A DNA stretch of 64,000 nt, taken from Sinohyriopsis cumingii. Its lineage: Eukaryota; Mollusca; Bivalvia; Unionida; Unionidae. Made by a program: the position numbers and the translations under genes. The notes beneath the pieces are model-generated. The model had not been told where the DNA came from. It was given only the letters and a program-made list of their open reading frames with translations, and made no database searches. Shown piece by piece: positions 4,175 through 63,798 of the stretch; position 1 is the stretch's first letter, and every line of letters starts with the position of its first letter. The DNA is taken from NCBI GenBank assembly GCA_028554795.2, contig CM068827.1:143112251-143176250 (forward strand). The letters run 5' to 3'.

Positions 4175-4520
4175 AGTAGTTAAGTGGGATACATTAGGGA
4201 CAATGGGACTTAGCATTAAAAAGACCCCTGGGACACTTTAGGGACAATGGAAATTTAACATGGAGAAAAATCGTGGGTCACTTTAGGGACAATGGGAATT
4301 TAACATAGAGTTTGGGTCTGTCTATGGACAAAGGAAATTAACATGGGAATAGAGTTTGGGTTTGTCTAGGGACAAGGGGAATTGAATATGGGATTTTTTT
4401 TTTTTTTAAAAGTTTTTTTTTAAATTTAAATTTAAATTTAAATTTAGAAAAGGGGTAGGCAATGGAAAGGCTATCTCTTTTCGAGAAATATGGCTGGCCC
4501 TGAAAAGGGCCTTTGGGTTT
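4175..4520 (+). repeat. left terminal inverted repeat of element 1
   Basis: About 346 bp, nearly the reverse complement of 20453-20794. From the outer tip inward it holds AGTAGTTAAGTGGGATAC; several imperfect iterations built on a TAGGGACAATGG..TTTAACAT unit; a poly-T stretch; a (TTTAAA)n stretch; GGGGTAGGCAATGGAAAGG; and the histone-type stem-loop used by the adjacent outward-reading gene. Confidence 0.97.
4496..4511 (-). terminator. histone-type 3' stem-loop in left TIR
   Basis: On the minus strand this reads GGCCCTTTTCAGGGCC, with CCCAAA before it and AGCCA after it. A purine-rich GAAAAGAGA block lies about 15 nt further on. It sits just past the stop codon of the gene at 4536-5132. The sequence fits the metazoan histone mRNA stem-loop (six-bp stem, TTTC loop). 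Confidence 0.85.
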
Positions 4521-4535
4521 TTTCTTCTTCTTCTT

Positions 4536-5132
4536 TTAACTTCTTAACTTTTTCCACCATCCTCTTATTTTGTCCATCATTCCTTTCTTCTTTTTCTTTT
4601 CTGTTTCTGGTATCCAGTCCGGGTGACCCATGGCTCGGAACTTGGCCTGTATTTTCATCCAGTTGTTATTCAGTTGGTCGAATTCTAATTTCTTCTTCTT
4701 ATTCTGTTCTTCCTTTCTTTCTTTAGTCCACCTTTCCTTTATGTTTTCTACTTCTTGGGTCATCACTTGTTTCATTATTTCTTCTCCTTTTTTCAACCTG
4801 TTCAGTCCCCTCTTCATATATGACAACTCCGTCCAATACACTATATGTTCTAGGAAGCACCGGACTTGGATGACATAATCCAGTGCTTCCTTCAAACTCC
4901 CCACTCTTACATAAGGTGGGTCAATAAAACCTCTTGATTTGTTGACTTCATCTTCTATCATTCCTTCTATTATATGTCTGGCGGCCTTTATATGTTCGAC
5001 TTGACTGGTTACCAAGTGTTCTTTATCTTCATACTCCCATTCCTTTTGTATCCTTTCTATAGCATATTCTGCATCTATTATCCAGAAATAGATATGCCTC
5101 AATTGATTAAATAAATCAGTCACTTGCGTCAT
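4536..5132 (-). CDS. small helical accessory protein A (198 aa), element 1
   Basis: A 198-residue protein rich in helix-forming charged residues, with no recognised enzymatic domain. The N-terminal part (about 1-90) has regularly spaced hydrophobics (LFNQLRHIYFWIIDAEYAI), the centre (about 130-165) is a Lys/Glu-rich probable coiled coil, and the tail ends in a basic DKIRGWWKKLRS motif. The equivalent gene in element 2 (62244-62624) shares mainly the architecture and the DKIRxWW-type tail, so the N-terminal part diverges fast. A TATA-like box (about 5185-5191) and the shared 27-bp upstream module lie before the ATG, and a histone-type stem-loop follows the stop. It reads outward, toward the left end of the element. 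Function is unknown; an accessory or host-interaction role is inference from its terminal position and variability. Confidence 0.8.
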   Translation of the reverse strand: MTQVTDLFNQLRHIYFWIIDAEYAIERIQKEWEYEDKEHLVTSQVEHIKAARHIIEGMIEDEVNKSRGFIDPPYVRVGSLKEALDYVIQVRCFLEHIVYWTELSYMKRGLNRLKKGEEIMKQVMTQEVENIKERWTKERKEEQNKKKKLEFDQLNNNWMKIQAKFRAMGHPDWIPETEKKKKKGMMDKIRGWWKKLRS

Positions 5133-5184
5133 CTTGTCTAGATTATTCTTTGTAGAATGGTTTGAACGACGAATACTGTGGCTT

Positions 5185-5223
5185 CTTATACGAAAAGCGC
5201 GGACGTGAAGGAAAACATCCCCC
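5185..5223 (-). promoter_or_regulatory. TATA box plus shared 27-bp upstream module (gene A)
   Basis: TATAAG lies at about 5185-5191. A 27-bp module, on the plus strand beginning GCGCGGACGTGAAGG and ending CATCCCCC, lies at 5197-5223. The same module precedes genes B and C here and the genes of element 2, always just upstream of a TATA-like box. Confidence 0.75.
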
Positions 5224-5261
5224 TACTTTTTCATTTCATATAATAAAACCCAAGCTATACT

Positions 5262-5531
5262 CTCCACATACGCTAAGAAACAATAAACAAATCCATAATC
5301 TACTATCCACACAATCGTACGTGAGCGGGTACAAACACAAACACACAAACACAAACACACAAACACATACGCTAAGAAACAATAAACAAATCCATAATCT
5401 ACTATCCACACAATCGTACGTGAGCGGGTACAAACACAAACACATACGCTAAGAAACAATAAACAAATCCATAATCTACTATCCACACAATCGTACGTGA
5501 GCGGGTACAAACACAAACACACAAACACATA
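5262..5531. repeat. triplicated spacer unit between genes A and B
   Basis: A unit starting CACATACGCTAAGAAACA and ending in a GCGGGTACAAACACAAA stretch occurs three times (starts near 5268, 5366 and 5442), with (ACAAACAC)n filler of variable length. Element 2 carries a single shorter version (62821-62905). The long minus-strand ORFs across it are artefacts of the duplication. Confidence 0.9.
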
Positions 5532-5629
5532 CCCTCACACTATCTTAAAAAAGAGTTAGTGTTTATATTCACACTACTCTACCTACACATTGGCAAATTG
5601 ATGGTTATTTCTTTTCTAGAGTATTGGGT

Positions 5630-5645
5630 AGCCCTGAAAAGGGCT
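5630..5645 (-). terminator. histone-type 3' stem-loop after gene B
   Basis: On the minus strand: AGCCCTTTTCAGGGCT, followed directly by ACCCA and, 8-10 nt on, AGAAAAGAAATAA. The stop codon of gene B is 29 nt upstream. Confidence 0.87.
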
Positions 5646-5673
5646 GTTTTTTTGGAACTTCATGGACACCTGG

Positions 5674-6057
5674 TTAATGGTGGCACCTTCCAGGCCTGGC
5701 GCCACATACACATCTTATCCCCCAGTTACTTTTTACTTTTTTGGGGGAGAGAGCAGAGGCAGGATATGTCGCTTCAGAATCCCAATTTTCGCTCTCTGGG
5801 ATTCTGAAATTTATTCTTCTTCTCTTCTTTTCCTTCTCCTCCTCTTCCTTGTTTCTTCTCTCCTCCTCTTTGTATCTTCTTTCCTCTTCTTCTTCTTCTT
5901 TATATCTTCTCTCCTCCTCTTCTTTTTTTCTTCTTTCCTCCTCCTCTCTTATCCTTCCCTCCTCCACAATGGCTTCCGCGGCCAGTTCATTTAATATGCG
6001 CCTGGCATATTCCAGATGCACATGAAGTTCCAACAGTTTAGACAGTCTCGTGTTCAT
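5674..6057 (-). CDS. small accessory protein B with C-terminal CVCGARPGRC tail (127 aa)
   Basis: The N-terminal helix (about 1-35, RLSKLLELHVHLEYARRI) is followed by a very acidic/basic Glu-Arg-Lys coiled-coil-like tract (about 36-78) and a conserved end, CVCGARPGRCHH. The element 2 homologue (63041-63349) keeps the N-terminal helix and tail almost unchanged while the charged tract differs in length. This pattern argues for real coding and purifying selection on both ends. The Cys/His-rich tail could bind metal, but that is inference. A TATA box lies at 6109-6115 with the 27-bp module just upstream, and a histone-type stem-loop follows the stop. No family was recognised. Confidence 0.82.
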   Translation of the reverse strand: MNTRLSKLLELHVHLEYARRILNELAAEAIVEEGRIREEEERRKKEEEERRYKEEEEEERRYKEEERRNKEEEEKEKKRRRINFRIPESENWDSEATYPASALSPKKVKSNWGIRCVCGARPGRCHH

Positions 6058-6108
6058 TTTTGGTGTTGATCAATCAACAAGGGTAGCTAGACTGCCCAGC
6101 GAGTTTCA

Positions 6109-6148
6109 ATTTATAGTGAAAGCGCGTACGTGAAGGAAAACATCCCCC
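6109..6148 (-). promoter_or_regulatory. TATA box plus shared 27-bp upstream module (gene B)
   Basis: CTATAAATTG (TATA at 6109-6115) and the module at 6122-6148, which differs from the gene A module at one position. The TATA-to-ATG distance is about 50 nt, allowing a short leader. Confidence 0.8.
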
Positions 6149-6170
6149 TAAAAAAACATAAAATTGATGT

Positions 6171-6534
6171 TAGTTAGTTAGTTGGATTATAGTGGTTTTC
6201 GTTCTTTTGAACATGTACCACTTTTTTATTCACGCACTGCGTGATTTTTAATTACTCCTGGGGGAAGGAAAAGGAGCCTCATCCCCCAGGCTTTTATGTA
6301 CTCAAAGAGTACTTTTTAATTTAGCCACTCAGGTGTAGGACTAACTAGTCCTTAACAACCTGACTGAAAGGCTAATAGACATGAGTGGGAATAGTCACAC
6401 CACACACTCGTGTTTCTTAGTTGGATTGAAATGCCCCAGGTGTCAAATCAAGCAGTATGTGACTCCCGCCACGATTGGTCGGCAGCGATGAGGTCACATT
6501 AGGACACCCGGTCTTGTGGCATTGACGAAGTGAT
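6171..6534 (-). mobile_element. retroposed insertion inside element 1, 12-bp TSD
   Basis: The 364-bp segment is flanked by an exact 12-bp duplication, TAAAATTGATGT (6159-6170 and 6535-6546). It is absent from the same place in element 2 (63450-63500). Read on the minus strand it ends in a short (ACTA)n tail, as SINE-like or truncated LINE insertions do. No clear tRNA A/B boxes were found, so the family is unknown. Confidence 0.75.
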
Positions 6535-6640
6535 TAAAATTGATGTAACCTACATCATGACCAAAAACAACAAGATTAAAATTGGTCATAAGATTAAAAT
6601 TGATGTAACCTACATCATGACCAAAAACAACAACGCGCGG
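6532..6640. repeat. 60-bp tandem duplication in spacer
   Basis: The block TAAAATTGATGTAACCTAC through ACCAAAAACAACAA occurs twice (from 6535 and from 6595). Element 2 has one diverged copy near 63459-63490. Just downstream at 6633-6660 is a second conserved spacer motif, GCGCGGACCTAAAAG, also present near 63488. Confidence 0.75.
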
Positions 6641-6941
6641 ACCTAAAAGAAACACTCACTCACTTTTTTATGCTACCCATCACTATTTTAAAATTTTTTA
6701 TAAATCACTTCATTAGACTATCCACATACGCAAAGCAATCCAATCTAACTCCAAATATACACCTCAAACACCAAAAAAACATGATTTTAATCTACTATTC
6801 ATACCAACTTACTTAAGCACTTACTAACACACAAACACATACCCTCACATTTTTTAAAAAAGAGTTAGTGTTTATTTTCACACTACTCTACCTACACACA
6901 TTGGCAAATCGATCGTTATTTCTTTTCTAGAGTATTGGGGT

Positions 6942-6957
6942 AGCCCTGAAAAGGGCT
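6942..6957 (-). terminator. histone-type 3' stem-loop after gene C
   Basis: On the minus strand: AGCCCTTTTCAGGGCT, then A-CCCCA (one extra C relative to the other copies), then TCTAGAAAAGAAATAA. A TTTATT (AATAAA on the minus strand) at 6871-6876 could act as a backup poly(A) signal, as in dual-end histone genes. Confidence 0.85.
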
Positions 6958-6989
6958 GTTTTTTTTTTGTTTGCTATGGCATTCTTTTT

Positions 6990-7376
6990 TTAGTTTCTAA
7001 GAATGCGATGTCCTCTGAGGATAGACTTTCTGGCGATAGGTCTGCTTCTTCGGAAAGAAAAGAAGAACTCTTTGGTGTCGATACGGCAATCGACAAAGCC
7101 TCTGTCAGGTTCAGGTTGCTGCTGCTGTTGTTGTTGTTGTTGCTGCTGTTGCTGCTGTCTCTGAAGTCTGTACTTCTCTGTCCATTCTTCTTTCTCCCTG
7201 TTCATTTCTTTTCTGAAGAGCTCTTCTATCAGGTCTTCAGTGACTTTTAACATTCTCACATTCTCTATTTCTTCTGGCTTCGGTATCAGACTGTCTCTGA
7301 CCCTATGCAAATTCACGTAGGCTTCGTTGAGTTTAGCTAGTTTGGAGCACATCTTCTTAGGAGGATGAGTCGACAA
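6990..7376 (-). CDS. small accessory protein C with polyglutamine tract (128 aa)
   Basis: The N-terminal helical region (about 8-65: LAKLNEAYVNLHRVRDSLI, then TEDLIEELFRKEM) resembles the layout of proteins A and B. A Q tract encoded by mixed CAG/CAA codons spans about residues 72-87, and a basic tail follows (FRRSRPIARKSILRGHR). Element 2 has a nearly identical gene at 63831 onward, cut by the window end. The region around 7405-7412 is a weak TATA substitute (CTTTAAGAA), with the 27-bp module just beyond. A histone-type stem-loop follows the stop. Function is unknown; it is probably a paralogue of A and B by architecture only. Confidence 0.8.
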   Translation of the reverse strand: MSTHPPKKMCSKLAKLNEAYVNLHRVRDSLIPKPEEIENVRMLKVTEDLIEELFRKEMNREKEEWTEKYRLQRQQQQQQQQQQQQQQPEPDRGFVDCRIDTKEFFFSFRRSRPIARKSILRGHRILRN

Positions 7377-7417
7377 TGGATGGTTAGACTGGAAACAACC
7401 CGGTTCTTAAAGTCAAA

Positions 7418-7444
7418 GCGCGGACGTGAAGGAAAACATCCCCC
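7418..7444 (-). promoter_or_regulatory. shared 27-bp upstream module (gene C)
   Basis: Same sequence as at 5197-5223, placed upstream of the gene C start. Confidence 0.75.
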
Positions 7445-7745
7445 ACACGGTTTTTGAGTCGCAACGTTTAGTGAGTGTCATGAGAGGGATAGTAAGAAAT
7501 GAAAGAGCATCAATCCAACATTCTTATAGCTAAACAAAAGACAAAGGCATTTTTTTCAAAACACAACATTTTTTATTCAAAAATCACTTAACACTAAACA
7601 ACAACTCTAACATTTTTAACAATAATCCAACATCATAACATCAAACAATCTTTTTCAAAACACAACATTTTTTCCACAGTCTCATCACATTCCATCTTTA
7701 AAGTTTCTCCACTAGGTAAAGAGGGATAACAGTCTTCCATGGTTT
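7445..7745 (-). other. spacer with poly(A) signal after major capsid gene
   Basis: No gene. TTTATT at 7572-7577 gives AATAAA on the minus strand, about 170 nt past the capsid stop. A CTTTTTCAAAACACAACATTTT-like block is duplicated here. No histone-type stem-loop is present. Confidence 0.6.
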
Positions 7746-9059
7746 CTAGTAATCTAGGATGACTTCTCTCAAACTGTTGATTTCTATGGTATTATCGAAT
7801 TCTGCATACAGGATGACGTTCACCGTTTCATCAGGGTCTCGGTCTTTAAACTGAATTTCCACACGAATCTGGCCGGATTTTATAGGGTGGAAATGTCCCT
7901 CGTCGCTGCCTTGGTCTGGAGTGAAATCGAAAGCCCACAAAGCGTAGCCTCCTGCATAATCCTCGTACGTAATGCCGTGACTGGTATTGGTTCCTAACTG
8001 TCCGGTGGCTTCGTACAGGGACAAGTACGATCTCAAGTAATTCTTCTTGGTAAAGTCAGGTTCGAAAGGTCGGGTACACAAGGTTTTGCCATCGCGACTG
8101 ACTTCGATTTTGGACACGCCAAAGTGTTGAAAGTAGAAAGGATTTTTTTCGGCAGCTCCGTTGAAGGCTGTATTCTCGACGATACCAACGATCAAACGTT
8201 TGGGTAACTGTCCTTGGAACAGATGATCTTCGATCATGGATCGCTGTCCCTTGGGAATGGTGAAGGTTTTCACTTCCACGCGTCGTATGGGATACTTGGC
8301 GGTCGTTCTGCTCAACGTCTGACTGATGTCGTTTCCCACTTTAGGTAACACTTCCACACGGCGTACGTAGAGTCTGGCTTCTAGGATTTTGGTTTTGTAA
8401 CCGTCACTATCAGCCATCAAATGGAAAGCGGCACTGCTACGATTCAGTCTCAGGCGGACATCCACCCCGTTCAGCAAACACTTTTCTTGCAACCACATGT
8501 CCAAATGCAAACGATCCATCAGTTCTAAACTTGTGTCGGATCCTGTGATTCTCTTTCTTCGTTCTACAAATCCATCATTGTTGTCTTTCTTTTCATCAGT
8601 TTCCAATATTTCAAACTTGGTAGGTTCGTCAGCTTCCCATACCACACAGGCATTGAGATGAGTGTTCTTGGCATCTATTCCGTACGTCAAGAGATTTTCC
8701 AGGTAGGCACGATAAGGGTAAGTATCCATGCTGCTACTGACCAGTTTGTTATTCAAGTACAAGTCCACTCCACTGAACAAGGAATGCATGAAATTGTTGA
8801 CGGGAGCTACTGCTTCATCGTCTATAGCACCTCCAGTCTTATCTAGAATTTTGACTTTCAGGTACAAGTAACTGCTATTCAGATCGATGTAATCTTCGGG
8901 CTGTCCTTTGATTTCAAACTCGATGGGAGCGGAATCGGTCAGTGAGGAGACGGGGTGAAATTCCACCCACTGGGATTCTTGCATGGTCATCATGGTGGGG
9001 GGCATGGCAAACAGATCCAGTTCCGTCTTGGAACAAGCGCAAGATTCTCGGTGCATCAT
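7746..9059 (-). CDS. major capsid protein (hexon-like, double jelly-roll), 437 aa
   Basis: Forms the icosahedral shell of Maverick/adintovirus virions. The 437-residue length and layout fit the family. The N-terminal WVEFHPVSSLTDSAPIEFEI is followed by DYIDLNSSYLYLKVKI (about 57-72) and a FMHSLFSGVDLYLNNKLV segment (about 90-107), features typical of adintovirus capsid proteins. The second jelly roll is represented by the RRVEVKTFTIPKGQRSMIEDH to LPKRLIVGIV region (about 260-293). The C-terminus DNTIEINSLREVILDY is complete. It is followed in the same direction by accessory genes and preceded by the pVI/pX-like gene 19 nt away. The reading frame is intact. An alternative start one codon in (MHRES) is equally possible. 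Confidence 0.93.
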   Translation of the reverse strand: MMHRESCACSKTELDLFAMPPTMMTMQESQWVEFHPVSSLTDSAPIEFEIKGQPEDYIDLNSSYLYLKVKILDKTGGAIDDEAVAPVNNFMHSLFSGVDLYLNNKLVSSSMDTYPYRAYLENLLTYGIDAKNTHLNACVVWEADEPTKFEILETDEKKDNNDGFVERRKRITGSDTSLELMDRLHLDMWLQEKCLLNGVDVRLRLNRSSAAFHLMADSDGYKTKILEARLYVRRVEVLPKVGNDISQTLSRTTAKYPIRRVEVKTFTIPKGQRSMIEDHLFQGQLPKRLIVGIVENTAFNGAAEKNPFYFQHFGVSKIEVSRDGKTLCTRPFEPDFTKKNYLRSYLSLYEATGQLGTNTSHGITYEDYAGGYALWAFDFTPDQGSDEGHFHPIKSGQIRVEIQFKDRDPDETVNVILYAEFDNTIEINSLREVILDY

Positions 9060-9078
9060 TTTTTTTTGGTCTCTTTTA

Positions 9079-9495
9079 TCAATAATCGAAAACGTCTAAG
9101 TCTCGAACGGTTCTTCTTTTCTTGACCTTTCTCGCTTGAAGTCTGGTGAAAGGGTGTTTTCTTCGTCGTCTCTTTCTGCCTTGTCCTTGCTGAATGCCTG
9201 ACTCGGTAGCGTGCAGGGCATTTATAGGTGTTTCTCGTTGGCCTAAAATGTCTTTGCCCGTTTGCAGCAAGACATTTTTGCCTGCCCTCATGAAAGCTTC
9301 TTTAGGGTTTTGTTTGTCGATGATGACATTTTGGAGAAATTCTTTGCCTTGCGTCAGTGCCGCATCTTTCAAGGCGTGCAATCCGCGTGTCACCATCGGT
9401 TTCAACACCGGGGCCACCGAACGAAAGGCCGATTTTAACATGTCTCCTAAGCCGTGTCCTCGCTGTCGAGCAACCCCTCGGTACACTGGATACAT
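9079..9495 (-). CDS. pVI/pX-like basic virion protein, 138 aa
   Basis: A small basic protein beginning MYPVYRGVARQRGHGLGDML, with a predicted amphipathic region (about 15-45) and a strongly basic stretch near the end (RKRRRRKHPFTRLQARKVKKRR) that looks like a nuclear or DNA-binding signal. In Maverick/adintovirus genomes a comparable gene sits between penton-like and major capsid genes and is compared with adenovirus minor core or membrane-active proteins. The name rests on position and composition, not on a clear fold. The gap to the penton-like stop is only 3 nt. The decayed element 3 retains a remnant at 36293-36475. Confidence 0.7.
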   Translation of the reverse strand: MYPVYRGVARQRGHGLGDMLKSAFRSVAPVLKPMVTRGLHALKDAALTQGKEFLQNVIIDKQNPKEAFMRAGKNVLLQTGKDILGQRETPINALHATESGIQQGQGRKRRRRKHPFTRLQARKVKKRRTVRDLDVFDY

Positions 9496-9498
9496 GAC

Positions 9499-10086
9499 TT
9501 AAGAGTCGTGAGAGAACCGTTTTCGAAAATGGAGTTTCACCGTGACTTTTCCTTTGGTGAATGGAATATTTTGTCCCAGATCTCCTTTTATAGCAATGTT
9601 GACCGTGTCCAAATACGACTTACTGACAGGCAAATACTGAGGATGGACAAATTCGCGGTGGACGTGGTAAGTGTTTCCACCTTCCTCGTCAGCATCTGTG
9701 GCAGAATCCACTTTGAAAGGAATGACACGCAGTAACGGTACGGAGGTGTGTCCCACCACGTTGTACTCCACCACATCGGAATACACGAACATCAAATTCA
9801 GTCCTTGGTTCAGTTCTACCGGGGCACGAAATAACTTGCTAAAAGACTCGTTGTCGTAAACGATGGGTAATTCGTTTTTCTTGATCATGGTCTTTCTCAT
9901 GTCCATGTCTCCGCCCAACATGTCATACAATTCAGGACAAAATAAAATGGACAGGATTTTACTCCGTTCAAATTTCATCAAGAAGCGACGAGCTGCTTTG
10001 TGGTACTCCATGGTGACATTTTTGTTGACATGCTCCAAAGCTTTCAGAAACACGACATTAAACCTGGAGGTTATGGTGCTGACCAA
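9499..10086 (-). CDS. penton-like minor capsid protein, C-terminal part (frame-broken gene)
   Basis: This is the downstream part of the penton/minor capsid gene that begins at 10421. Conserved features include the LNLMFVYSDVVEYNVVGHTS segment, VPLLRVIPF, and a final GKVTVKLHFRKRF stretch. The first codon of this open frame is TTG, not ATG, and the frame stays open upstream into the region overlapping the N-terminal part (to about 10115). It is therefore not an independent gene. The two parts differ by one base of frame at a run of five G on the plus strand near 10112-10116. The protein would form vertex capsomers. Confidence 0.85.
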   Translation of the reverse strand: MVSTITSRFNVVFLKALEHVNKNVTMEYHKAARRFLMKFERSKILSILFCPELYDMLGGDMDMRKTMIKKNELPIVYDNESFSKLFRAPVELNQGLNLMFVYSDVVEYNVVGHTSVPLLRVIPFKVDSATDADEEGGNTYHVHREFVHPQYLPVSKSYLDTVNIAIKGDLGQNIPFTKGKVTVKLHFRKRFSHDS

Positions 10087-10421
10087 ATGTTGACCACTAA
10101 AATAATAGCCGGGGGAATGAACAAGTGATAGGTGGTGTACTTTTGTGTACGGGTTTTCTTGTCATATTTGACATTGCTATCCATCCACTGTTGCATTTGC
10201 TCGTCATGAACTTCCACATCAAAAAAATTTTGATTGGGAAGGACATTGAGGACTTGGGTCGGGTGAATCATTTCTACTAAAGCCACTTCCCAATGGGCTT
10301 CGTGATCTAACTGGATGGCCTGAGGTAATTTGGCCGTGTAACAGCACAACGTGTTCTTGGGAAACACCTCCATGGAACTGTCACTGGGTAAAGTTAAGTA
10401 AAATTGGTTTTGGTGACTCAT
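10071..10421 (-). CDS. penton-like minor capsid protein, N-terminal part (frame-broken gene)
   Basis: Starts at an ATG that overlaps the stop of the two-TM gene by 4 nt (ATGA). The opening, FYLTLPSDSSMEVFPKNTL and HWEVALVEMIHPTQVLNVLP, is typical of Maverick penton-like proteins. True homologous coding ends around 10115, where the frame slips by one base; the last 15 or so residues here are out of frame. The break lies at a homopolymer, so it may be either recent decay or an assembly indel. As it stands no full-length product is encoded. Confidence 0.85.
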   Translation of the reverse strand: MSHQNQFYLTLPSDSSMEVFPKNTLCCYTAKLPQAIQLDHEAHWEVALVEMIHPTQVLNVLPNQNFFDVEVHDEQMQQWMDSNVKYDKKTRTQKYTTYHLFIPPAIILVVNIWSAP

Positions 10422-10834
10422 AATTCCAGAGTTCTGTGGCTCTCCGAGGGGTTACTGGACGTCAGAGGTGTGTCTCCGTCTAAAATGGGGTTCTGGTTGT
10501 GGTTGAAGTGGTGACTGGCACTGGCACTGGACACAAGGCTCCCGGGGTTCCCGTTCGAGGTGAATTTCAGGGAGGGATTAGGAAGCAGGTAACCGATGCA
10601 ACTGCTCAATAAAATGGTCCACAATTGTTTGTCTCCTTGTTGCAAACTCAAGTTGGCGATGGCTGCCCCGATGACACAATACACCACGAAGATTTGGCAG
10701 AAAAAGACGATTTGCGTTTTAGGCATACGTTCTCCATACCACACCCACAAGGGTTGTTTTTGTAAATCTTGCACAGAAGAACTATGTGAAGGAGGAGTGG
10801 TCGACGTAGCTGCGTCTGGTGTGTGAAAGGGCAT
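10418..10834 (-). CDS. conserved Maverick two-transmembrane protein, about 138 aa
   Basis: The ATG at 10834 is preferred. An in-frame GTG three codons upstream overlaps the preceding stop but is an unlikely eukaryotic start. Two hydrophobic helices are visible: IVFFCQIFVVYCVIGAAI (about 42-60) and LWTILLSSCIGYLLPNP (about 70-87). A Ser/Asn-rich tail follows. Proteins with this two-helix pattern ending in GYLLPNP are common next to penton-like genes in animal Mavericks; the role is unknown, perhaps in an internal membrane or host entry. It overlaps both neighbours by a few bases, suggesting a tightly packed late block. A remnant exists in element 3 (37341-37750). Confidence 0.8.
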   Translation of the reverse strand: MPFHTPDAATSTTPPSHSSSVQDLQKQPLWVWYGERMPKTQIVFFCQIFVVYCVIGAAIANLSLQQGDKQLWTILLSSCIGYLLPNPSLKFTSNGNPGSLVSSASASHHFNHNQNPILDGDTPLTSSNPSESHRTLEL

Positions 10835-10839
10835 GATGG

Positions 10840-11049
10840 TCACTTCTTTTTATAGTCGATGACTTGCGAAGCGTCTATCCAAGAATCGAAACTGGGGGGA
10901 TATTCTTTCCAACGTACTTTGACTTCTTTGACACGTCGTTTGCCCACTTTACGGGTTCTGCGTTCGAGAATGCTTTCGATGTCGTACACGTCGTCTTCTT
11001 TTTTGGTGACACGTTGTAACTCGGGCAAATAAAACGTTCCTTTGAGCAC
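10840..11049 (-). CDS. chromodomain module severed from integrase by a stop codon
   Basis: About 69 codons in the same frame as the integrase, immediately after its TAA. The segment VYDIESILERRT, then VKVRWKEYPPSFDSWID, is a chromodomain with its aromatic residues (Y, W, W). In related Maverick integrases this domain is the C-terminal end and is thought to guide integration to chromatin. The first codon here is GTG, so it has no start of its own. Expression would need readthrough of the TAA, or the domain is lost. Confidence 0.8.
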   Translation of the reverse strand: MLKGTFYLPELQRVTKKEDDVYDIESILERRTRKVGKRRVKEVKVRWKEYPPSFDSWIDASQVIDYKKK

Positions 11050-11949
11050 TTATCCGTTCATGTCTTCCAATTTATAGACGGCAGGATGACGGCCATGCAC
11101 TCGTCCAGTGACGCGAAACAATTCGGTCGTCCAGTTAGGTAAGTAACCTTTGTCGAAAGTGCGTTTGGTTTTGCCAATGCGCACCCAATCTCCTACGGCC
11201 AACATTCCACTTTTCTCGGGGACAGCCCTCGTCGGGGACGTACCAAACAGGCGCTCAAACACCAACACTTCGTTCTCGGGAGTCACGTCTTGCGGGGCAC
11301 GTCCGATGCTTCGATGGTAAGATTGGTTGTACGCTTGCACCAGGTGCGGTAAGATGTCGATGTACTCCAGAGTGTGGTGATGCGTGAAATATTTCCACAT
11401 GCGTTCTTTCAAAGTGCGTTGAAAACGTTCCACGATGCTGGCTTTGGTTTCGGGATTCTCGGTGGTAAAAAAATGAATGTCACGTTTCTTTAATTCTTTT
11501 TGGAAAGCTTGGTTCAGAAATTCGGTGCCTTTGTCCGTTTGCCATCGAAGAGGGTGACGACCGCTTTGTTTCAACACCCGTTGCAGGGCTCGCACTAACT
11601 CGCTGCTCGATTTGGAAGTCAAGGGCACGACCCAGGCAAATTTGGAAAAGACGTCGATGACACAAAACAAATATTTGTAGCCACGATTGTAGCTGGCCAA
11701 ATGAGAGACATCGGCTAAATCGGCTTGCCATTGATGATCGATGCCTTCCACTCTGGTGCGACTTCTGGCAAACTTGCGTCGAATGGGTTTGTGTAAAGTG
11801 TAGGTAGCTTGTTCTTGTAACCATCGTTGCACTTGAGGTAAACGGAGACTTTTCAGTCGCGTTTTGGCAGCACGATACAATTTTTGAACTCCTGCGTAAC
11901 CTGCAGGATGGGAGGGATCGTAGTAAATGCTGGCTAAGACTTTTTCCAT
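11050..11949 (-). CDS. retroviral-type integrase (rve family), C-terminally cut by stop
   Basis: Catalyses insertion of the element with 6-bp target duplication. The ATG at 11949 (MEKVLASIYYDPS) is preferred; 12 codons upstream begin with GTG. From that ATG, the core acidic triad is visible at about D77 (QWQADLADV), D139 (WQTDKGTEF) and E174 (KASIVERFQR), with the DD(35)E spacing of the family. A basic SH3-like region (VGDWVRIGKTKRTF) follows. A TAA at 11050-11052 ends the frame, and the same frame continues into the chromodomain at 10840-11049. The gene starts 20 nt past the stop of the gene at 11970. A decayed homologue lies at 37980-38790. Confidence 0.95.
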   Translation of the reverse strand: MEKVLASIYYDPSHPAGYAGVQKLYRAAKTRLKSLRLPQVQRWLQEQATYTLHKPIRRKFARSRTRVEGIDHQWQADLADVSHLASYNRGYKYLFCVIDVFSKFAWVVPLTSKSSSELVRALQRVLKQSGRHPLRWQTDKGTEFLNQAFQKELKKRDIHFFTTENPETKASIVERFQRTLKERMWKYFTHHHTLEYIDILPHLVQAYNQSYHRSIGRAPQDVTPENEVLVFERLFGTSPTRAVPEKSGMLAVGDWVRIGKTKRTFDKGYLPNWTTELFRVTGRVHGRHPAVYKLEDMNG

Positions 11950-11969
11950 TTTTTGTGTTGGTTGGTGTG

Positions 11970-12602
11970 TTAATAAGACACCCACTCTTGGAGGATGCTA
12001 CTCTTTTTCTCTTGGGGTATTTTCTTGGATTGCAATGCTTTGCGTGTGCGGCCAGCAATAGGTGTCGAAGAGGAGAAGGATGTCTGAGCGGGGGATATCG
12101 GTTCTTGTTTCACTTCTGTCTTCACTTTCTTTTTCTCTTGTGATGAAGAAGGGGTGACCGTCATCTTTTTAATCCATCCAATTCTGGAGGTAGGTGGTGT
12201 TGTTAACTTGCGTACTTTTTCTGGTGGAGTTTGAAACCCTTCCTCTTCTTCTCCTTTTTCTGTCTTGGTCACGGGTACTGGTGGTACTGGTACTGGTGCT
12301 GGTACTGGTGATGGTGCTGGACTTTTCATCAAGGTCTTAAAATCTTTCAGAGTGGGTAGAGCTGTTTCGTCTAAAGCTTTCTGGTGAAAGAGTTGCAGTC
12401 GTTGCAAGAGTTGACCGTACTTTTGCGATTTTTCTATTTCGGACAAATTTTGGCGATCCATTAAGGACTGCAATTCGTGTTGTAACTGGGACATCTCGCT
12501 CAAATGGGGATTGGGAGATAAATGCGCGGTGTGTTGTTCTTGCCACCGATGGTATTCCATCCATCGTTTGTAAGGCACTAAAGCTAGTTTTCGTCCTTCC
12601 AT
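11970..12602 (-). CDS. conserved Maverick protein upstream of integrase, 210 aa, function unknown
   Basis: The N-terminal part (KLALVPYKRWMEYHRWQEQH) is followed by a helical region (about 35-90, rich in Q and L, probably coiled coil), a Pro/Val repeat linker (SPVPAPVPVPPVPVTK, about 115-133) and a Lys/Ser/Thr-rich tail. The tail contains a short GRTRKALQSKKI segment. Proteins opening with an LVPY-type motif recur in animal Mavericks in this position, but no biochemical role is established to my knowledge. The ATG at 12602 is well placed. The tail ends 20 nt before the integrase ATG. A degraded counterpart around 39630-39700 in element 3 keeps the start region. Confidence 0.75.
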   Translation of the reverse strand: MEGRKLALVPYKRWMEYHRWQEQHTAHLSPNPHLSEMSQLQHELQSLMDRQNLSEIEKSQKYGQLLQRLQLFHQKALDETALPTLKDFKTLMKSPAPSPVPAPVPVPPVPVTKTEKGEEEEGFQTPPEKVRKLTTPPTSRIGWIKKMTVTPSSSQEKKKVKTEVKQEPISPAQTSFSSSTPIAGRTRKALQSKKIPQEKKSSILQEWVSY

Positions 12603-12650
12603 GGGGTTGTCAGGGGTCGATTCTGAGATCTTGGAACTTCCGAGGCCTTT

Positions 12651-13037
12651 TTATCTTGCTCCCACCAGTCCTCCCAACATGGTTCCCAAGACTCCTTTCA
12701 GTATGGGGCCTAACAAGAGAGGTAAAATACCTCCACGTTGCACTAACATCTTCTTTTTTTCACGAATGGGAATTTTCTTTTGAACCATTTGGCGAAGAAC
12801 GTGACGATGTTTGCCTAAGCATTGTTTCTGGTGTTTGGACAAAGGGATCGTGCCTTTCAAAACGTTCAAACAACATTCGCACACGGTATCGATGACCTCT
12901 TTGGAGGCTGTTTGAATGAGTTTTTTTCGTAGGGGTGGAGAAGCTTTGGACAGGACAGATAACATGTCCCCATGTTTGGCTAAACGTGGTGGCAGTCCTT
13001 TCCTTTTCTTTCCTTGGGGTTTTCTGGAGGGTGACAT
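12651..13037 (-). CDS. conserved small basic protein with hydrophobic C-terminus, 128 aa (paralogue of the gene at 13989)
   Basis: A basic N-terminus (SRKPQGKKRKG) is followed by a helical region LAKHGDMLSVLSKASPPLRKKL, a Cys-containing segment (VCECCLNVLKGTIPL) and a KKKMLVQRGG motif. The last about 25 residues are a Gly/Leu-rich hydrophobic segment (GILPLLLGPILKGVLGTMLG) that could insert in membranes. This type of protein is common in adintoviruses and is compared loosely with adenovirus core or membrane-lytic proteins; function is unproven. The layout matches that of the neighbouring gene at 13989, including the position of the Gly-Gly motif. A TATA-like TATAAAAAGG lies at 13092-13101, about 55 nt upstream of the ATG. 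Confidence 0.75.
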   Translation of the reverse strand: MSPSRKPQGKKRKGLPPRLAKHGDMLSVLSKASPPLRKKLIQTASKEVIDTVCECCLNVLKGTIPLSKHQKQCLGKHRHVLRQMVQKKIPIREKKKMLVQRGGILPLLLGPILKGVLGTMLGGLVGAR

Positions 13038-13091
13038 CTTTCAGTCTTCAGGAGCACCAAAAAAACACTGATACCCGACTTGGTCACAGGC

Positions 13092-13101
13092 CTTTTTTAT
13101 A
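13092..13101 (-). promoter_or_regulatory. TATA box for the gene at 13037
   Basis: TATAAAAAGG on the minus strand, 55 nt before the ATG. Confidence 0.6.
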
Positions 13102-13685
13102 CTGGAACGCATCGCCACTGATTGTCTTTACGTCGTATCAGTTTGAGGACAGGCATGACACGTCGTGCAGGGGTACGTAACGGATTAAATCGAGCCAGTT
13201 CTTGCTTGGACAAATCCAGTAAACTTTGTAACATGCCCGATCTTTCTTGAACTTTGATTTTGGGAGAAGGTACTTTGTGAGCAGCAGCCACTGCCACTAA
13301 ATTGGAAGGTCCTGCCACTGGGGAAGTTCTTTTGGGGGTCATCAACGGAGAAGTTCTTGGTGTGATCAACGTCTCCAAGTACTCTTCAGTTCTGGGTGTC
13401 ATTAACGGAGAAGTGGACAAACGTGAAGCTGCCGGAGACGCAGTCACCGCCGTGGCAGGTCGTGGTTTGCGAGTGTAAGGTTGCGTCCTGGCCGAAGTGC
13501 CTCTCTTGCGACTAGTTTTCTGTGGACTTTTCTTTTTCTGGGGGCTTCTTTTCTTTTTCCGGGGTGGTGGTGGTGGTGTCTGGTCAGAGGAGGGTCCTGC
13601 CACTGGAGAAGTTCTCCTTGGGGACCTGGTCTTTTTCTTCTTGGGGCTTCGTTGAACTTTTGTCTTGGGGATAGTGAGCGAATGA
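13097..13685 (-). pseudogene. C-terminal part of the basic protein (Pro/Ser/Lys-rich)
   Basis: Continuation of the gene starting at 13989 in a shifted frame. The sequence is low-complexity and basic, with PKKKKTRSPRRTSPVAGPSS and a second RTSPVAGPS occurrence about 100 residues later, plus TP-rich SPLMTPRT repeats. The end is better ordered (SGMLQSLLDLSKQELARFNP to DNQWRCVPV). The many S/T-P sites and Lys runs suggest a nucleic-acid-binding, phosphorylated protein, which is inference. The upstream limit of about 13685 is an estimate of the frame-shift site. Confidence 0.6.
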
Positions 13686-13989
13686 TGACCCCTCCTAGAG
13701 TACCGCTCCCTCCAGGTTTCAAAATGATTTGTTTTTTGGTTTGAGTGTCGATGCGGGGATCGGCCAGTTGGACCAAAGCGACTTTGTTTCGATCGAAAAA
13801 GCGTTTGGTTTGATGAGGAATCTGAATGAATCCTTGGAGTATTTGACGTACCGTCACCGTGAACCATCGTAAGACTTCTTTGAGACTAGCTTCTAAGACA
13901 CGGGCTCGTGTTTGTGGATCTTTTTCTCGACTGATGCCATACAAGGCACGAATCAATTTGACGGGAAGATGCGACTGAAGGGACGTCAT
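13444..13989 (-). pseudogene. conserved basic protein, N-terminal part (frame-broken gene)
   Basis: The ATG at 13989 (MTSLQSHLPVKLIRALYGIS) is preferred over the GTG two codons upstream. The first about 105 residues follow the same pattern as the gene at 13037: a repeated alpha-helical layout, RARVLEASLKEVLRWF, then IDTQTKKQIILKPGG. Near 13680 the coding signal moves to the frame running to 13097, and the rest of this frame is out-of-frame translation. As it stands the gene does not encode a full product. A TATA box (TATAAAAA, 14031-14038) lies about 45 nt upstream. The same frame break was not seen in the paralogue. Confidence 0.7.
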
Positions 13990-14030
13990 GTTCACACTGA
14001 GAGTGAGACAGACGAAAAAGGGTCTGAGGT

Positions 14031-14038
14031 TTTTATAG
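14031..14038 (-). promoter_or_regulatory. TATA box for the gene at 13989
   Basis: TATAAAAA on the minus strand, about 45 nt upstream of the ATG. Confidence 0.6.
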
Positions 14039-14044
14039 ATTTTT

Positions 14045-14788: not shown

Positions 14789-14832
14789 GGTGTGAGAAAT
14801 GTCACTTGTGACACGAAAAACAAACAAGACAA

Positions 14833-14842
14833 GAGTTTATAT
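14833..14842 (-). promoter_or_regulatory. TATA box of packaging ATPase gene
   Basis: GTATATAAAC on the minus strand. It lies about 45 nt before the preferred ATG and decides against the upstream in-frame TTG. Confidence 0.7.
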
Positions 14843-14858
14843 ACTTTTTCAGAACACG

Positions 14859-14864
14859 TTTATT
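14859..14864 (-). terminator. poly(A) signal downstream of polymerase gene
   Basis: TTTATT (AATAAA on the minus strand). It is the first clear signal after the polymerase stop at 15274. No histone-type stem-loop is present here. Confidence 0.55.
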
Positions 14865-49653: not shown

Positions 49654-49661
49654 AATATCGT

Positions 49662-52894: not shown

Positions 52895-53249
52895 ACATCC
52901 AATGATACATCGAAACAATAATTTAGGCGTTAAATGACATATCGAAACAATAATTTGGACATTAAATGACACATCGAAAAAATATTTTAGACACGGAATG
53001 ATACATCGAATTAGCAATTTAGACATTGAACGATAGATCGAAATAATAATTTAGATATTAAATGATACATTTAAAAAATAATTTTGACATTAAATGACAC
53101 AGCGAAAAAATAACTTAGACATTAGACGATACATCGGAAAAATAATTTATGCATCAAACGATATATCGGAAAAATAATTTATGCATGATACATCGGAAAA
53201 ATAATGTAGACATTAAATAAAACATGTAAAGAATAATGTTTACATTAAA

Positions 53250-53315: not shown

Positions 53316-53981
53316 TTAAGGAAGGTTGTTCCTTATGTTTCGTATCCAGATCTAATTGGCTAATTGGCATTGGTAAGTGCCACACACTGCAATTGACAGG
53401 TGAAGTCTAAAATTAGTCGATCACATGTCACTTATTTGAGTGTAGATTTAGGCTTATTGACCCACATTACGCCACATGATTGACCAATAACTATTTTGTT
53501 ATTAACACCTTGGTTGAAACGGTTAGGCATCTAATGTCCACATACTTGACCAATAATATCCCATAAGTAATATATGCTAGCTACCCCTTTCAAGCGACCG
53601 AACGGTTTTCATTTTGGCCATTTAAATCTGTCTTCTTTGTTTTGCAGACCATCTGCTTGAGACATGTCCTTGACTTATAATATTATATAACACCTTCCGA
53701 CTCTTGAGTGTTGTCATTTTTATACTATATGGCAATTTGTCCATTTAGTGTGCACATTTGTATTATGCTTTTGCTCTCAGGTGACAAGGAGAACAACAAT
53801 ATATCCTTCATATTGACATAACAGATATGTCACTAATGCATGAGAAAAAATGTGAGCAACTTCCTGTCATTTTTCAACTGTGATACGCAAAATATACTAT
53901 GGTAGGAAAAATCTCTATGATTTGAGTTTTGCTGTACTAATACTGGATAGAAATAATTACAACATCAGTTACTCTTAAAGA
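53314..53981. other. host non-coding DNA
   Basis: No gene recognised. Confidence 0.4.
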
Positions 53982-54433
53982 ACCGGTAAGTTAAGTCAAA
54001 TGGTTTTAAGTACCGACAAGGTAATTCAAAAGCATTTAAAGTTGCCATACGGTAATTCAGTAGCAATAAAAATATCCCCATGGTAATTCAGTTACATTTG
54101 AAGTACCCACAAGGTAAGTCAGTATCATTTGAAGTACCCACAAGGTAATTCAGTTACATTTGAAGTACTTACAAGGTAATTCAGTTACATTTGAAGTACC
54201 CACAAGGTAATTCAGTTACATTTGAAGTACCCACAAAGGTAATTCAGTTACATTTGAAGTACCCACAAGGTAAGTCAGTATCATTAAAATTGCCACATGT
54301 TAATTCAGTAGCATTTAAAGTACCCCCAAGGTAATATTGTAATATTTAAAGTTGTCACAAGGTAATTTAGTAGTATTTCCAGTACCCACAAGGTAATCCA
54401 ATAGTATTTAAAGTACTCACAAGGTAATTCATT
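53982..54433 (+). repeat. about 31-bp minisatellite (GGTAATTCAGTTACATTTG type), left part
   Basis: Units of the type CAAGGTAATTCAGTTACAT followed by TTGAAGTACCCA, about 14 copies. The array resumes at about 54672-54760 after an inserted SINE. Confidence 0.9.
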
Positions 54434-54675
54434 AAGGTTTAACGCCAGCACAATATAGGATAAACATGGCGGCCAGTATAAATGGTGGAGGAAGAACCCG
54501 GGAAAACCCCAGAAAACCCAGGAAAGAACCACCGGCCCACTAGAAGCTACCGGCAAGCTTTCTCACATACCCACATTTGCCGAGCCCGAGAATCGAACCA
54601 ACGCAGACAGAGGTGAGATGGCAGTAATCCGTAACAGTGAGCGCTCTAGGCCACTCGACCTCTCGAGTCCCCTCC
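54434..54675 (-). mobile_element. SINE A copy inserted in the minisatellite
   Basis: Same family and orientation as 2633-2880. On the minus strand it has a GGTTCGATTCTCGGG-like B box and an AGGTCGAGTGGCC-like head. It interrupts the 31-bp array, so the insertion is younger than the array. Confidence 0.88.
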
Positions 54676-61923: not shown

Positions 61924-62237
61924 AGTAGTGAAGGGGGATACCCTACGGACAATGGGAATTAGCATTACAGAACCCCTTGGACAATGGAAATTTAACATGG
62001 CGAAAAATCGTGGGACAATCTACGGACAAGGGGAATTTAACATGGGAATAAATCGTGGGACAATCTACGTACAAGGGGAATTTAACATGGGAATAAATCG
62101 TGGGACAATCTACGTACAAGGGGAATTTAACATGGGATTTTTTTTTTTTTTTAAATTTTAAAAAAAGGGGTAGGCAATGGAAAGGCTATCTCTTTTCGAG
62201 AAATATGGGGCCCTGAAAAGGGCCTTTGGGTTTTCTT
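61924..62237 (+). repeat. left TIR of element 2
   Basis: Related to 4175-4520. The iteron unit here is about 45 bp (CGTGGGACAATCTACG then ACAAGGGGAATTTAACATGG) and occurs three to four times. GGGGTAGGCAATGGAAAGG and the stem-loop are conserved with element 1. The inner boundary is estimated from the GGGTTT motif. Confidence 0.85.
62209..62224 (-). terminator. histone-type 3' stem-loop, element 2 TIR
   Basis: On the minus strand: GGCCCTTTTCAGGGCC after CCCAAA, then CCATATTTCTCGAAAAGAGA. It is 20 nt past the stop of gene A. Confidence 0.85.
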
Positions 62238-62243
62238 CTGCTT

Positions 62244-62624
62244 CTAATTTCTTCTTTTCCTCCACCAACTTCTTATTTTATCTCCAACACTCTTTCTCTT
62301 CTTTTTTTTCTCCTTCTCTTCTTTCTTCTCTTCCTCCTCTTCTTCTTTCTTCCTCTTCTCATTTTCTTCTTCTTTTTCAATTTTTTCGTTCCATGTTCTT
62401 ATTCTTATCTTTTCCTCTTCATCCTCCTTCTCCTCCTTTATTTCCTTCATCACACCACTAATCTTGTCCTTTGCTTTTCTTAAGTTGTTAATTTCCATCT
62501 TTACACGATGGGGACTATAGGAATAATGGTCTTCAACCAGTCTTATTAGCATCTGTTCCATTATTCCTAAGTTGTCTAAAACGTCTTGCAAGGTTTGTAT
62601 TTTGTCCATTTGGTTTGACGCCAT
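62244..62624 (-). CDS. small helical accessory protein A (126 aa), element 2
   Basis: The opening (QMDKIQTLQDVLDNLGIMEQ) is helical but shows little identity with the element 1 protein. The centre is a long Lys/Glu run (about 60-110), and the tail (VGDKIRSWWRKRRN) matches the DKIRGWWKKLRS tail of element 1. At 126 residues it is shorter than its 198-residue counterpart. A TATA-like TATAAGAAC (62672-62680) and two copies of the 27-bp module lie upstream. Function unknown. Confidence 0.75.
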   Translation of the reverse strand: MASNQMDKIQTLQDVLDNLGIMEQMLIRLVEDHYSYSPHRVKMEINNLRKAKDKISGVMKEIKEEKEDEEEKIRIRTWNEKIEKEEENEKRKKEEEEEEKKEEKEKKKKRKSVGDKIRSWWRKRRN

Positions 62625-62671
62625 CTTCTTTTTATTCTTTGCAGAATGGTTTGAACGACGAACACTGTGGG

Positions 62672-62783
62672 TTCTTATAGTGAAAGCGCGAACGTGAAGG
62701 AAAACATCCCCCTAAAAAACATAAAATGGATCTTACCTAGATCATGACCCAACAACGCGCGTACGTGAAGGAAAACATCCCCC
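62672..62783 (-). promoter_or_regulatory. TATA-like box and two 27-bp modules (element 2, gene A)
   Basis: TATAAGAAC at 62672-62680, modules at 62686-62712 and 62757-62783. The second is about 71 nt further upstream. Confidence 0.75.
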
Positions 62784-62998
62784 TACTTTTTTCCTATAAT
62801 AAAACCCTAACTATACTCTTCACATACGCTAAGAAACCCATAATCTACTATTCACACAAACATACCTCAGCTCTTACTAACACAAACACACAAACACATA
62901 CACTTCCACTATTAATAAAGAGTTAGTGTTTATTTTCACACTACTCTACCTATACACATTGGCAAATTAATAGTTATTTCTTTTCTAGAGTATTGGGT

Positions 62999-63014
62999 AG
63001 CCCTGAAAAGGGCT
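62999..63014 (-). terminator. histone-type 3' stem-loop after gene B, element 2
   Basis: On the minus strand: AGCCCTTTTCAGGGCT followed directly by ACCCA and TCTAGAAAAGAAATAA. Confidence 0.87.
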
Positions 63015-63040
63015 GTTTTTTGAACTCCTGATGCACCTAT

Positions 63041-63349
63041 CTAATGGTTGCACCTTCCTGGCCTGGCGCCGCACACGCATCTTCTTCCCCAGTCTTCTTT
63101 CACCTTTCTTTTGGGGAGCGCAGAGGGAGGATGATTCGCTTCAACACCCCAATCCTCTGTTTCGGGAATATTGAACGACATCCTCTCTTCTCTTTTCTTT
63201 TCCTCTTCTCCCCTCTCTCTTCTCTCCTCCTCTTCTTTCTTCATTCTTGCTTCTTCTATGATAGCCTCCGCTGATAGTTCGTTTACTATGCGCCTGGCAT
63301 ATTCCAGGTGCATCTGGAGTTCTAACAGTTTCACTATTCTGCTATTCAT
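63041..63349 (-). CDS. small accessory protein B with C-terminal CVCGARPGRC tail, element 2
   Basis: Homologue of 5674-6057. The helix (MNSRIVKLLELQMHLEYARR) and the tail (CVCGARPGRCNH) are conserved while the charged tract between them is shorter. The ATG at 63349 lines up with the element 1 start; an upstream ATG at 63370 adds seven residues and is less likely. A TATA box (about 63407-63413) with the 27-bp module at 63419-63445 lies upstream, and a histone-type stem-loop lies downstream. Confidence 0.8.
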   Translation of the reverse strand: MNSRIVKLLELQMHLEYARRIVNELSAEAIIEEARMKKEEEERRERGEEEKKREERMSFNIPETEDWGVEANHPPSALPKRKVKEDWGRRCVCGARPGRCNH

Positions 63350-63406
63350 TCTTCTGGCTGTGTTGATCAATCAACAAGGGTAGCTAGACTGCCCAGCGAG
63401 TTTCAA

Positions 63407-63445
63407 TTTATAGTGAAAGCGCGGACGTGATGGAAAACATCCCCC
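63407..63445 (-). promoter_or_regulatory. TATA box plus 27-bp module (element 2, gene B)
   Basis: CTATAAATTG as in element 1, module at 63419-63445 with one change (GTGATGG for GTGAAGG). Confidence 0.75.
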
Positions 63446-63782
63446 TAATAACATAAAATTGATCTTACCTAGATCATGACCCAAAACAACGCGCGGACCT
63501 AAAAGAAACACTCGCTCACTTTTTTATGCTACCCACCACTTCAATGGACTATCCACATACGCAAAGCAATCCAATCTAACCCCAAATCTACACCTCAAAC
63601 AACCCAAAACAGAAAAAACCAGACATCATTTTAATCCACTATCCACACCAACCTACTTTATCACTTACAAACACAAACACATACCCTCACATTTTTTTAA
63701 AAAGAGTTAGTTTTTATTTTCACACTACTCTACCTACTCACATTGGCAAATCGATCGTTATTTCTTTTCTAGAGTATTGGGT

Positions 63783-63798
63783 AGCCCTGAAAAGGGCT
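63783..63798 (-). terminator. histone-type 3' stem-loop after gene C, element 2
   Basis: On the minus strand: AGCCCTTTTCAGGGCT followed by ACCCA and TCTAGAAAAGAAATAA. TTTATT at about 63714-63719 is a possible backup AATAAA. Confidence 0.87.

Follow-up and report, generated by a model that had tools for sequence, protein, structure and literature searches.

The closest described system to the signals considered here is the 3′ end of the metazoan replication-dependent histone mRNAs; according to PMC10388802 and PMC12775136, the histone-type end signal is known in animals only on histone mRNAs. Histone pre-mRNA is cut mostly 5 nt past the stem (ACCCA) and to a minor extent at 7 nt (ACCCACA) (PMC6303110), the minimal SLBP site with full affinity is reported to include two 5′ and one 3′ flanking adenines (PMC10388802), and the purine core AAAGAG pairs with the CUCUUU of U7 (PMC7026596). 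In S phase the level of SLBP protein increases about 20-fold, and the histone stem-loop mRNAs are degraded as the phase ends (PMC12775136). Histone genes of C. elegans also have a conserved polyadenylation signal (PAS) beside the hairpin, yet their mRNAs end after the hairpin (PMC1924863), and misprocessed histone transcripts of fly and human use downstream signals (PMC6303110). The second reference system is represented by the vertebrate Mavericks, which average 16,862 bp and have an AGT-repeat motif at their ends (PMC8097293). The DNA described here is a stretch of 64,000 nt of the bivalve Sinohyriopsis cumingii (assembly GCA_028554795.2, contig CM068827.1, positions 143,112,251 to 143,176,250 of the forward strand), called the window in the following, which contains two Maverick/Polinton insertions, the first whole (element 1) and the second represented by its left part (element 2). 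Eight stem-loops follow small accessory genes of these elements, and the probability that they are genuine replication-dependent-histone-type 3′ end signals, used by an animal Maverick for these genes, is put at about 0.83 from the DNA letters.

Stem-loops and downstream elements past the accessory genes

Directly observed in the DNA are the signals together with their spacing and sense, how well they are conserved and where in the genome they lie. A sequence-only reading of the window had listed eight stem-loops, and each is an exact match to RGCCCTTTTCAGGGCY at the position that it gave, five in element 1 and three in element 2:

4496–4511, minus strand, stem-loop after gene a, within a terminal inverted repeat (TIR); RF00032 35.6 bits
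5630–5645, minus strand, stem-loop after gene b; RF00032 31.0 bits
6942–6957, minus strand, stem-loop after gene c; RF00032 29.3 bits
19378–19393, minus strand, stem-loop after gene e, with the top score; RF00032 41.2 bits, E 9.6e-9
20462–20477, plus strand, stem-loop after gene d, within a TIR; RF00032 35.6 bits
62209–62224, minus strand, stem-loop after gene a2; RF00032 30.6 bits
62999–63014, minus strand, stem-loop after gene b2; RF00032 31.0 bits
63783–63798, minus strand, stem-loop after gene c2; RF00032 31.0 bits

The accessory genes that precede them are the following:

4536–5132, minus strand, gene a, 198 aa, no Pfam family above the cut-off
5674–6057, minus strand, gene b, 127 aa
6990–7352, minus strand, gene c, 120 aa
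19419–19981, minus strand, gene e, its frame split (19703–19981 and 19419–19805) at a polyglutamine tract
20201–20437, plus strand, gene d, 78 aa, in divergent orientation to e, with a C terminus rich in Arg
62244–62624, minus strand, gene a2, 126 aa
63041–63349, minus strand, gene b2, 102 aa
63831–64000, minus strand, gene c2, 3′ part, its start lying past the window edge

The sense of the stem-loop is that of the gene in 8/8 cases, and the stems start 19–32 nt past the stop codon (24 nt for a, 28 for b, 32 for c, 25 for e, 24 for d, 19 for a2, 26 for b2 and 32 for c2), within the 15–33 nt on the gene strand that had been read from the letters. RF00032, the Rfam model of the histone 3′ UTR stem-loop, matches all eight just past the stops on the gene strand (all E<=2.7e-4), which gives the proposed histone-type signal of 6-bp stem, TTTC loop and U7-type element support at the sequence level; no further match at E<1 is present in the window. 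A generic scan of the 64 kb for 6-bp stems returns the same eight stem-loops and no others.

In favour of chance or simple composition stand the model scores, five of the eight being below the Rfam gathering score of 34 (E 6.4e-5 to 2.7e-4) and three above it. Against this, 0.04–0.07 stem-loops are expected for 8 observed: the generic scan gave a mean of 0.04 and a maximum of 2 in 50 Markov runs, and RGCCCTTTTCAGGGCY with up to two mismatches gave a mean of 0.07 and at most 1 in 100 shuffles. Moreover, the RF00032 scan of 9 of the 11 lookalike or chance loci (L009 and L010 were left out) gave a single match up to E 0.01, with 25.1 bits and inside a reading frame. Chance is thus refuted by the counts against both controls, and its likelihood is considered negligible. 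The strict stem-loop pattern and the pattern with the downstream element each have 0 matches in IMG/VR, and two looser patterns found one match each there; both are taken as coincidences, L001 (the 25.1-bit match) lying inside an open reading frame (ORF) and L011 carrying ORFs that are phage-like as judged by reading, without a family search. A loose pattern of stem-loop, ACCNA and AAAGA occurs 4 times in the window, in 0 stretches of IMG/VR and in 9 stretches of a 257-Gb prokaryote set, prokaryote and viral sequences being an approximate control at best for the DNA of an animal.

The stem is formed by six base pairs and the loop by four nucleotides; all 48/48 stem cells pair, with 68% still pairing when the partner is slid by one column, and the second pair is G-C in 8/8. 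The loop is UUUC closed by U-A, and an identical U-UUUC-A loop is described for the solved histone stem-loop (PMC6827988). Four copies have G-C as the first pair and four have A-U, a compensated change that, coming from a few related lineages, is weak covariation evidence by itself. Flanking adenines are found as AA on the 5′ side in a, d, a2 and e (4/8) and as A on the 3′ side in 7/8.

The cleavage context is less uniform than the sequence-only reading had it, ACCCA directly after the stem in most copies being too generous a description: it is exact in 4/8 (b, b2, c2 and e), with AGCCA in a and d, ACCCCA in c and CCATA in a2. In particular, the gene e stem-loop is followed by ACCCACA exactly. 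A CA dinucleotide ends 5 nt from the stem in 6/8 copies, 6 nt in c and 3 nt in a2. The purine block that had been read 8–15 nt later in most copies is present in all: a GAAAAGA[AG]A resembling the histone downstream element (HDE) starts 13 nt past the stem in six copies, 14 nt in c and 11 nt in a2. The block has 11 further copies elsewhere on the two strands of the window, and the AAAGAG core is found in a, d and a2. The HDE-like blocks are located as follows:

4474–4482, minus strand, HDE-like GAAAAGAGA, gene a
5608–5616, minus strand, HDE-like GAAAAGAAA, gene b
6919–6927, minus strand, HDE-like GAAAAGAAA, gene c
19356–19364, minus strand, HDE-like GAAAAGAAA, gene e
20491–20499, plus strand, HDE-like GAAAAGAGA, gene d
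62189–62197, minus strand, HDE-like GAAAAGAGA, gene a2
62977–62985, minus strand, HDE-like GAAAAGAAA, gene b2
63761–63769, minus strand, HDE-like GAAAAGAAA, gene c2

Conservation and polyadenylation signals

Three gene pairs, a/a2, b/b2 and c/c2, allow the two elements to be compared, the sample being one host and two related elements. The stem-loops are identical at 16/16 positions in all three pairs, and the post-stem blocks at 27/27 in a, 28/29 in b and 29/29 in c (2, 0 and 1 gap columns, respectively). Coding DNA is identical at 195/380 positions in a/a2 (51%; 218 gap columns), 226/309 in b/b2 (75 gap columns) and 163/170 in c/c2 (0 gap columns), and the spacers from stop to stem at 13/19, 17/26 and 30/32. 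A near-identical signal amid diverged coding DNA fits constraint on the signal; the pair c/c2, nearly identical throughout, tells little.

A stem-loop within 400 nt past the stop is absent from 12 other ORFs of element 1 that were checked, namely 11 core ORFs and a gene with a CCHC zinc knuckle. Among these, an AATAAA stands 168 nt past the stop of the capsid-like ORF and another 41 nt past that of the polymerase, and the CCHC gene has its ATTAAA at 32 nt; in 5/12, which lie in the packed core array, the 400-nt range is free of poly(A) hexamers. The genes a, d and a2 are oriented outward and read into the TIR, and the 400 nt past their stops, a span that passes the end of the element, contain none of the four PAS hexamers tested. 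For b, c, b2 and c2 a TATAAA or AATAAA is present 106–113 nt past the stop, and after gene e an AATAAA occurs twice, at 17 nt and at 91 nt.

These hexamers are a ground for supposing that the histone-type signals persist by descent, from a captured host histone 3′ UTR spread by gene and TIR duplication, and are now bypassed, the mRNAs being polyadenylated at AATAAA; the PAS that stands beside the hairpin in C. elegans histone genes (PMC1924863) can be cited on the same side. However, the C. elegans mRNAs still end after the hairpin (PMC1924863), the hexamers are missing from the 400 nt after a, d and a2, and the stem-loop and post-stem blocks are near-identical where the coding DNA of a and a2 is only 51% identical, so that a bypassed relic is judged improbable.

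A different transcript end has to be weighed on account of the ancestry of the elements. Mavericks are relatives of virophages, and this kinship speaks for hairpins of the mimivirus and virophage type, in which the cut in the transcript would fall within the hairpin and viral enzymes would add the poly(A) afterwards. Mimiviridae mRNAs are in fact polyadenylated at hairpin-forming palindromes, but these hairpins are not conserved at the nucleotide level (PMC4402537), whereas the 16-mer is fixed here save for one compensated pair. The stem-loop together with its downstream part fits RF00032, the core ORFs have no stem-loop, and neither a poly(A) polymerase nor an RNase III family was detected by Pfam in 19 reading frames of element 1; a mimivirus-type end is accordingly given very little credence.

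Several observations weigh against a genuine histone-type signal. To the sub-gathering model scores and the hexamers after b, c, b2, c2 and e can be added the four copies that deviate from ACCCA, with a post-stem stretch 2 nt shorter in a2, and the C, in place of A, that the b and c types carry beside the stem. Covariation amounts to one compensated pair, and 7/500 shuffles reach the same score. Duplexes with the 5′ end of mammalian U7, taken in place of the host U7, have energies that are not clearly better than those of shuffled 3′ UTRs in any of the eight copies (fractions 0.06–0.55), a result that speaks neither for nor against the pairing. In addition, the next 40–60 nt past the HDE are also kept (33/38, 54/58 and 57/60); because the likeness continues past the HDE, conservation is not confined to the signal and the constrained block is wider, and gene conversion between the elements may be its source. 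Finally, the eight copies are not eight independent events because the two elements are close kin.

Structure of the elements, promoters and surroundings

The Maverick setting that had been recognized from the letters is borne out by termini, target duplication, integrase, DNA polymerase B and ATPase, and both elements are Mavericks and not a histone cluster:

4175–20794, element 1, a Maverick/Polinton insertion (termini AGTAGT/ACTACT) that has a target duplication, integrase, DNA polymerase B and ATPase
4169–4174, left target-site duplication TCTAGT, perfect 6-bp duplication
20795–20800, right target-site duplication TCTAGT, perfect 6-bp duplication
4175–4520, left TIR of element 1, its inner part containing the gene a stem-loop
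20453–20794, right TIR of element 1, its inner part containing the gene d stem-loop
7746–9059, minus strand, putative major capsid (hexon) ORF, 437 aa, named by size and position
11050–11949, minus strand, integrase (rve, PF00665, E 2.2e-14, Pfam)
14045–14788, minus strand, packaging ATPase, A32-like (Pox_A32, PF04665, E 1.2e-7, Pfam)
15274–18520, minus strand, DNA polymerase B region, organellar/viral type (DNA_pol_B_2, PF03175, E 1.1e-28, within 15274–17292)
18656–19126, plus strand, CCHC zinc-knuckle accessory gene, without stem-loop, ATTAAA 32 nt past the stop
61924–64000, element 2, left part, with an AGTAGT end at 61924, continuing past the window edge

The polymerase region is split over two overlapping frames (15274–17292 and 17135–18520). 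The 437-aa capsid-like ORF, the candidate for the double jelly-roll capsid protein of a Maverick, has no Pfam match, and its predicted structure is unusable (predicted local distance difference test, pLDDT, 32.5). A query of IMG/VR with the ATPase, a polymerase piece, the capsid ORF and the integrase gave no relative confirmed by tblastn.

The inverted pairs of element 1 are 99% (4170–4404/20565–20799) and 98% (4398–4520/20453–20575) complementary, and 2/5 of its stem-loops lie within the TIRs. Such a position would suit palindromes that work as DNA elements, that is, as sites close to the TIRs that serve replication, packaging or the integrase, and not as RNA signals; the other 3/5, however, are ~1.4–2.8 kb from the ends, all eight track gene sense and stop codon, and the loop, like the downstream blocks, is specific to one strand and agrees with RF00032, which leaves this explanation hardly any likelihood.

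The signal is present on 5/6 of the flanking accessory genes of element 1, in agreement with the claim that it ends most of them. A Pfam search found no histone family in a, b, c, d, e, a2, b2 or the c2 fragment, and a histone gene cluster is ruled out by this result for the ORFs before the stem-loops. The protein of gene a is predicted to be all-helical (single-sequence model, pLDDT 75); the Pfam matches of the ORFs before the stem-loops are all below the curated cut-offs, and the best of them, of a2 to TAF4 (E 0.0029) and of a to Flu_PB1 (E 0.0049), are taken as chance matches of charged helices. The N-terminal part of gene e gives the impression of an acidic and hydrophobic segment that may act as an activation domain. 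The stretch 5265–5540, downstream of the stem-loop of gene b, consists of tandem copies of a unit of ~77–99 nt, GT-rich on the gene strand.

A strongly conserved promoter motif is common to the stem-loop genes a, b, c, a2 and b2, 88–96 nt ahead of the ATG, with 6 matches in the window at up to three mismatches and 0 in 100 shuffles:

5198–5224, minus strand, promoter motif AGGGGGATGTTTTCCTTCACGTCCGCG, 27 nt, upstream of gene a
6123–6149, further copy of the motif, gene b
7419–7445, further copy of the motif, gene c
62687–62713 and 62758–62784, further copies of the motif, gene a2
63420–63446, further copy of the motif, gene b2

A TATA-like box is located 33 nt beyond the motif in a, b, a2 and b2, and e and d also have TATA-like boxes; none was seen for c among the seven stem-loop genes scanned. 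The motif was searched for and is absent for e, the scan of the window gave no match upstream of d, and no E2F-type site was found by eye in the motif.

Outside the two elements, minus-strand relics of an integrase, a penton-like ORF and neighbouring ORFs at 36180–38742 (tblastn/blastn) represent a third, decayed Maverick, in which the stem-loop scans of the window found no stem-loop. Retroelement remains occupy 27926–30624, with an integrase C-terminal domain (PF22938, E 3.1e-8) in 29914–30624 and no Pfam family in the other two ORFs scanned. Minisatellite arrays are found at 48739–49715 (27-nt spacing), 52857–53208 (32 nt), 53934–54440 (31 nt) and 1997–2297 (21 nt), and the CpG observed/expected ratio of the window is 0.83, a value judged unlike that of a vertebrate.

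Proposed use of the signal and comparison with known systems

From the signal we infer the use of SLBP and U7, the absence of poly(A) and the coupling to S phase. Each stem-loop gene, with apparently its own promoter and no apparent intron, would give a transcript that bears the stem-loop 19–32 nt past the stop. The stem-loop would be bound by the SLBP of the host and the purine block would be the pairing site of the U7 small nuclear ribonucleoprotein (snRNP), while cleavage, at the CA some 5 nt past the stem, would be the work of a CPSF73 complex. Ending at the cut, the mRNA would have no poly(A), and its stability and translation would be restricted mainly to S phase, in such a way that the element would limit its accessory genes to cells that are replicating DNA; the poly(A) hexamers near b, c, b2, c2 and e could act as a back-up. 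As the core ORFs are without the signal and the capsid-like, polymerase and CCHC genes have hexamers, two classes of mRNA are proposed, one replication-coupled and one polyadenylated.

In a broader form, to which somewhat better than even odds are given, a lineage of animal DNA viruses may have captured the histone 3′ end signal as a class-wide switch. A cassette of promoter plus stem-loop would tag the accessory genes, whose mRNAs would lack poly(A) and be made only in replicating cells, the capsid and replication genes would rely on ordinary poly(A), and the copies in the TIRs would give any gene adjoining either end of the element a histone-type mRNA end.

If true, these mRNAs would be the first non-histone, and the first viral, class of animal mRNAs with a histone-type end, and non-histone genes of a virus-like element with the whole signal would break the histone-only rule. 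With them, SLBP and U7 would have a natural substrate beyond the histone locus, and a concrete hypothesis would be available for the way in which Mavericks couple gene expression to the host S phase. RNA sequencing after poly(A) selection would under-report such genes, and for this reason elements that look silent may not be silent.

That histone-type ends are unreported in Mavericks, as the sequence-only reading had supposed, agrees with full-text literature searches, which found none and did not cover subscription papers. In particular, no relevant report, by title and start of abstract, connects the histone stem-loop with transposable elements or DNA viruses; among the matches listed for SLBP with viral genomes none is, by title, on viral histone-type mRNA ends, and among the Maverick/Polinton papers listed none also contains the phrase histone stem-loop. 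The terms stem-loop, histone, polyadenyl and hairpin each have 0 occurrences in the main text of PMC8097293, and the keyword passages of PMC11071296 contain no report of a histone-type end, the word histone there referring to histone-like viral proteins.

Like the hairpins that direct polyadenylation in mimivirus, those of the window would terminate a viral transcript; in mimivirus, in contrast, the hairpin sequence is not conserved, and a viral RNase III-like enzyme and a poly(A) polymerase yield polyadenylated mRNAs (PMC4402537). The potato spindle tuber viroid has in loop 27 the UUUUCA loop of the animal histone stem-loop, which folds alike by prediction and probing and is the same loop as here, but it is a plant viroid without the extended SLBP stem, and the role of the loop is in replication and trafficking and not in mRNA 3′ ends (PMC6827988). 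The Maverick/Polinton elements and adintoviruses, as described for the vertebrate Mavericks, share with element 1 the integrase, DNA polymerase B, ATPase, TIRs, the 6-bp AGT-repeat end motif, a size of ~17 kb and flanking accessory regions (PMC8097293). The C. elegans histone genes share with it the stem-loop, a putative HDE and a PAS close by, with mRNAs that end after the hairpin in the worm; they differ in being histone genes and in the core of the putative HDE, AATCC in C. elegans and GAAAAGA[AG]A here (PMC1924863).

The likeness to the metazoan replication-dependent histone ends (RF00032; SLBP, U7 snRNP and CPSF73) extends to the 6-bp stem, the UUUC loop with U-A closure, the G-C second pair, the CA about 5 nt on, the purine-rich HDE and the short distance from stop to stem, and at the level of the genes to an apparently intronless, TATA-driven organization and to the lack of a PAS hexamer after a, d and a2. 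The differences consist in the A-U first pair of half of the copies, the exact ACCCA in 4/8, the PAS near some of the genes and the encoded proteins, which match no histone family and belong to a mobile virus-like element.

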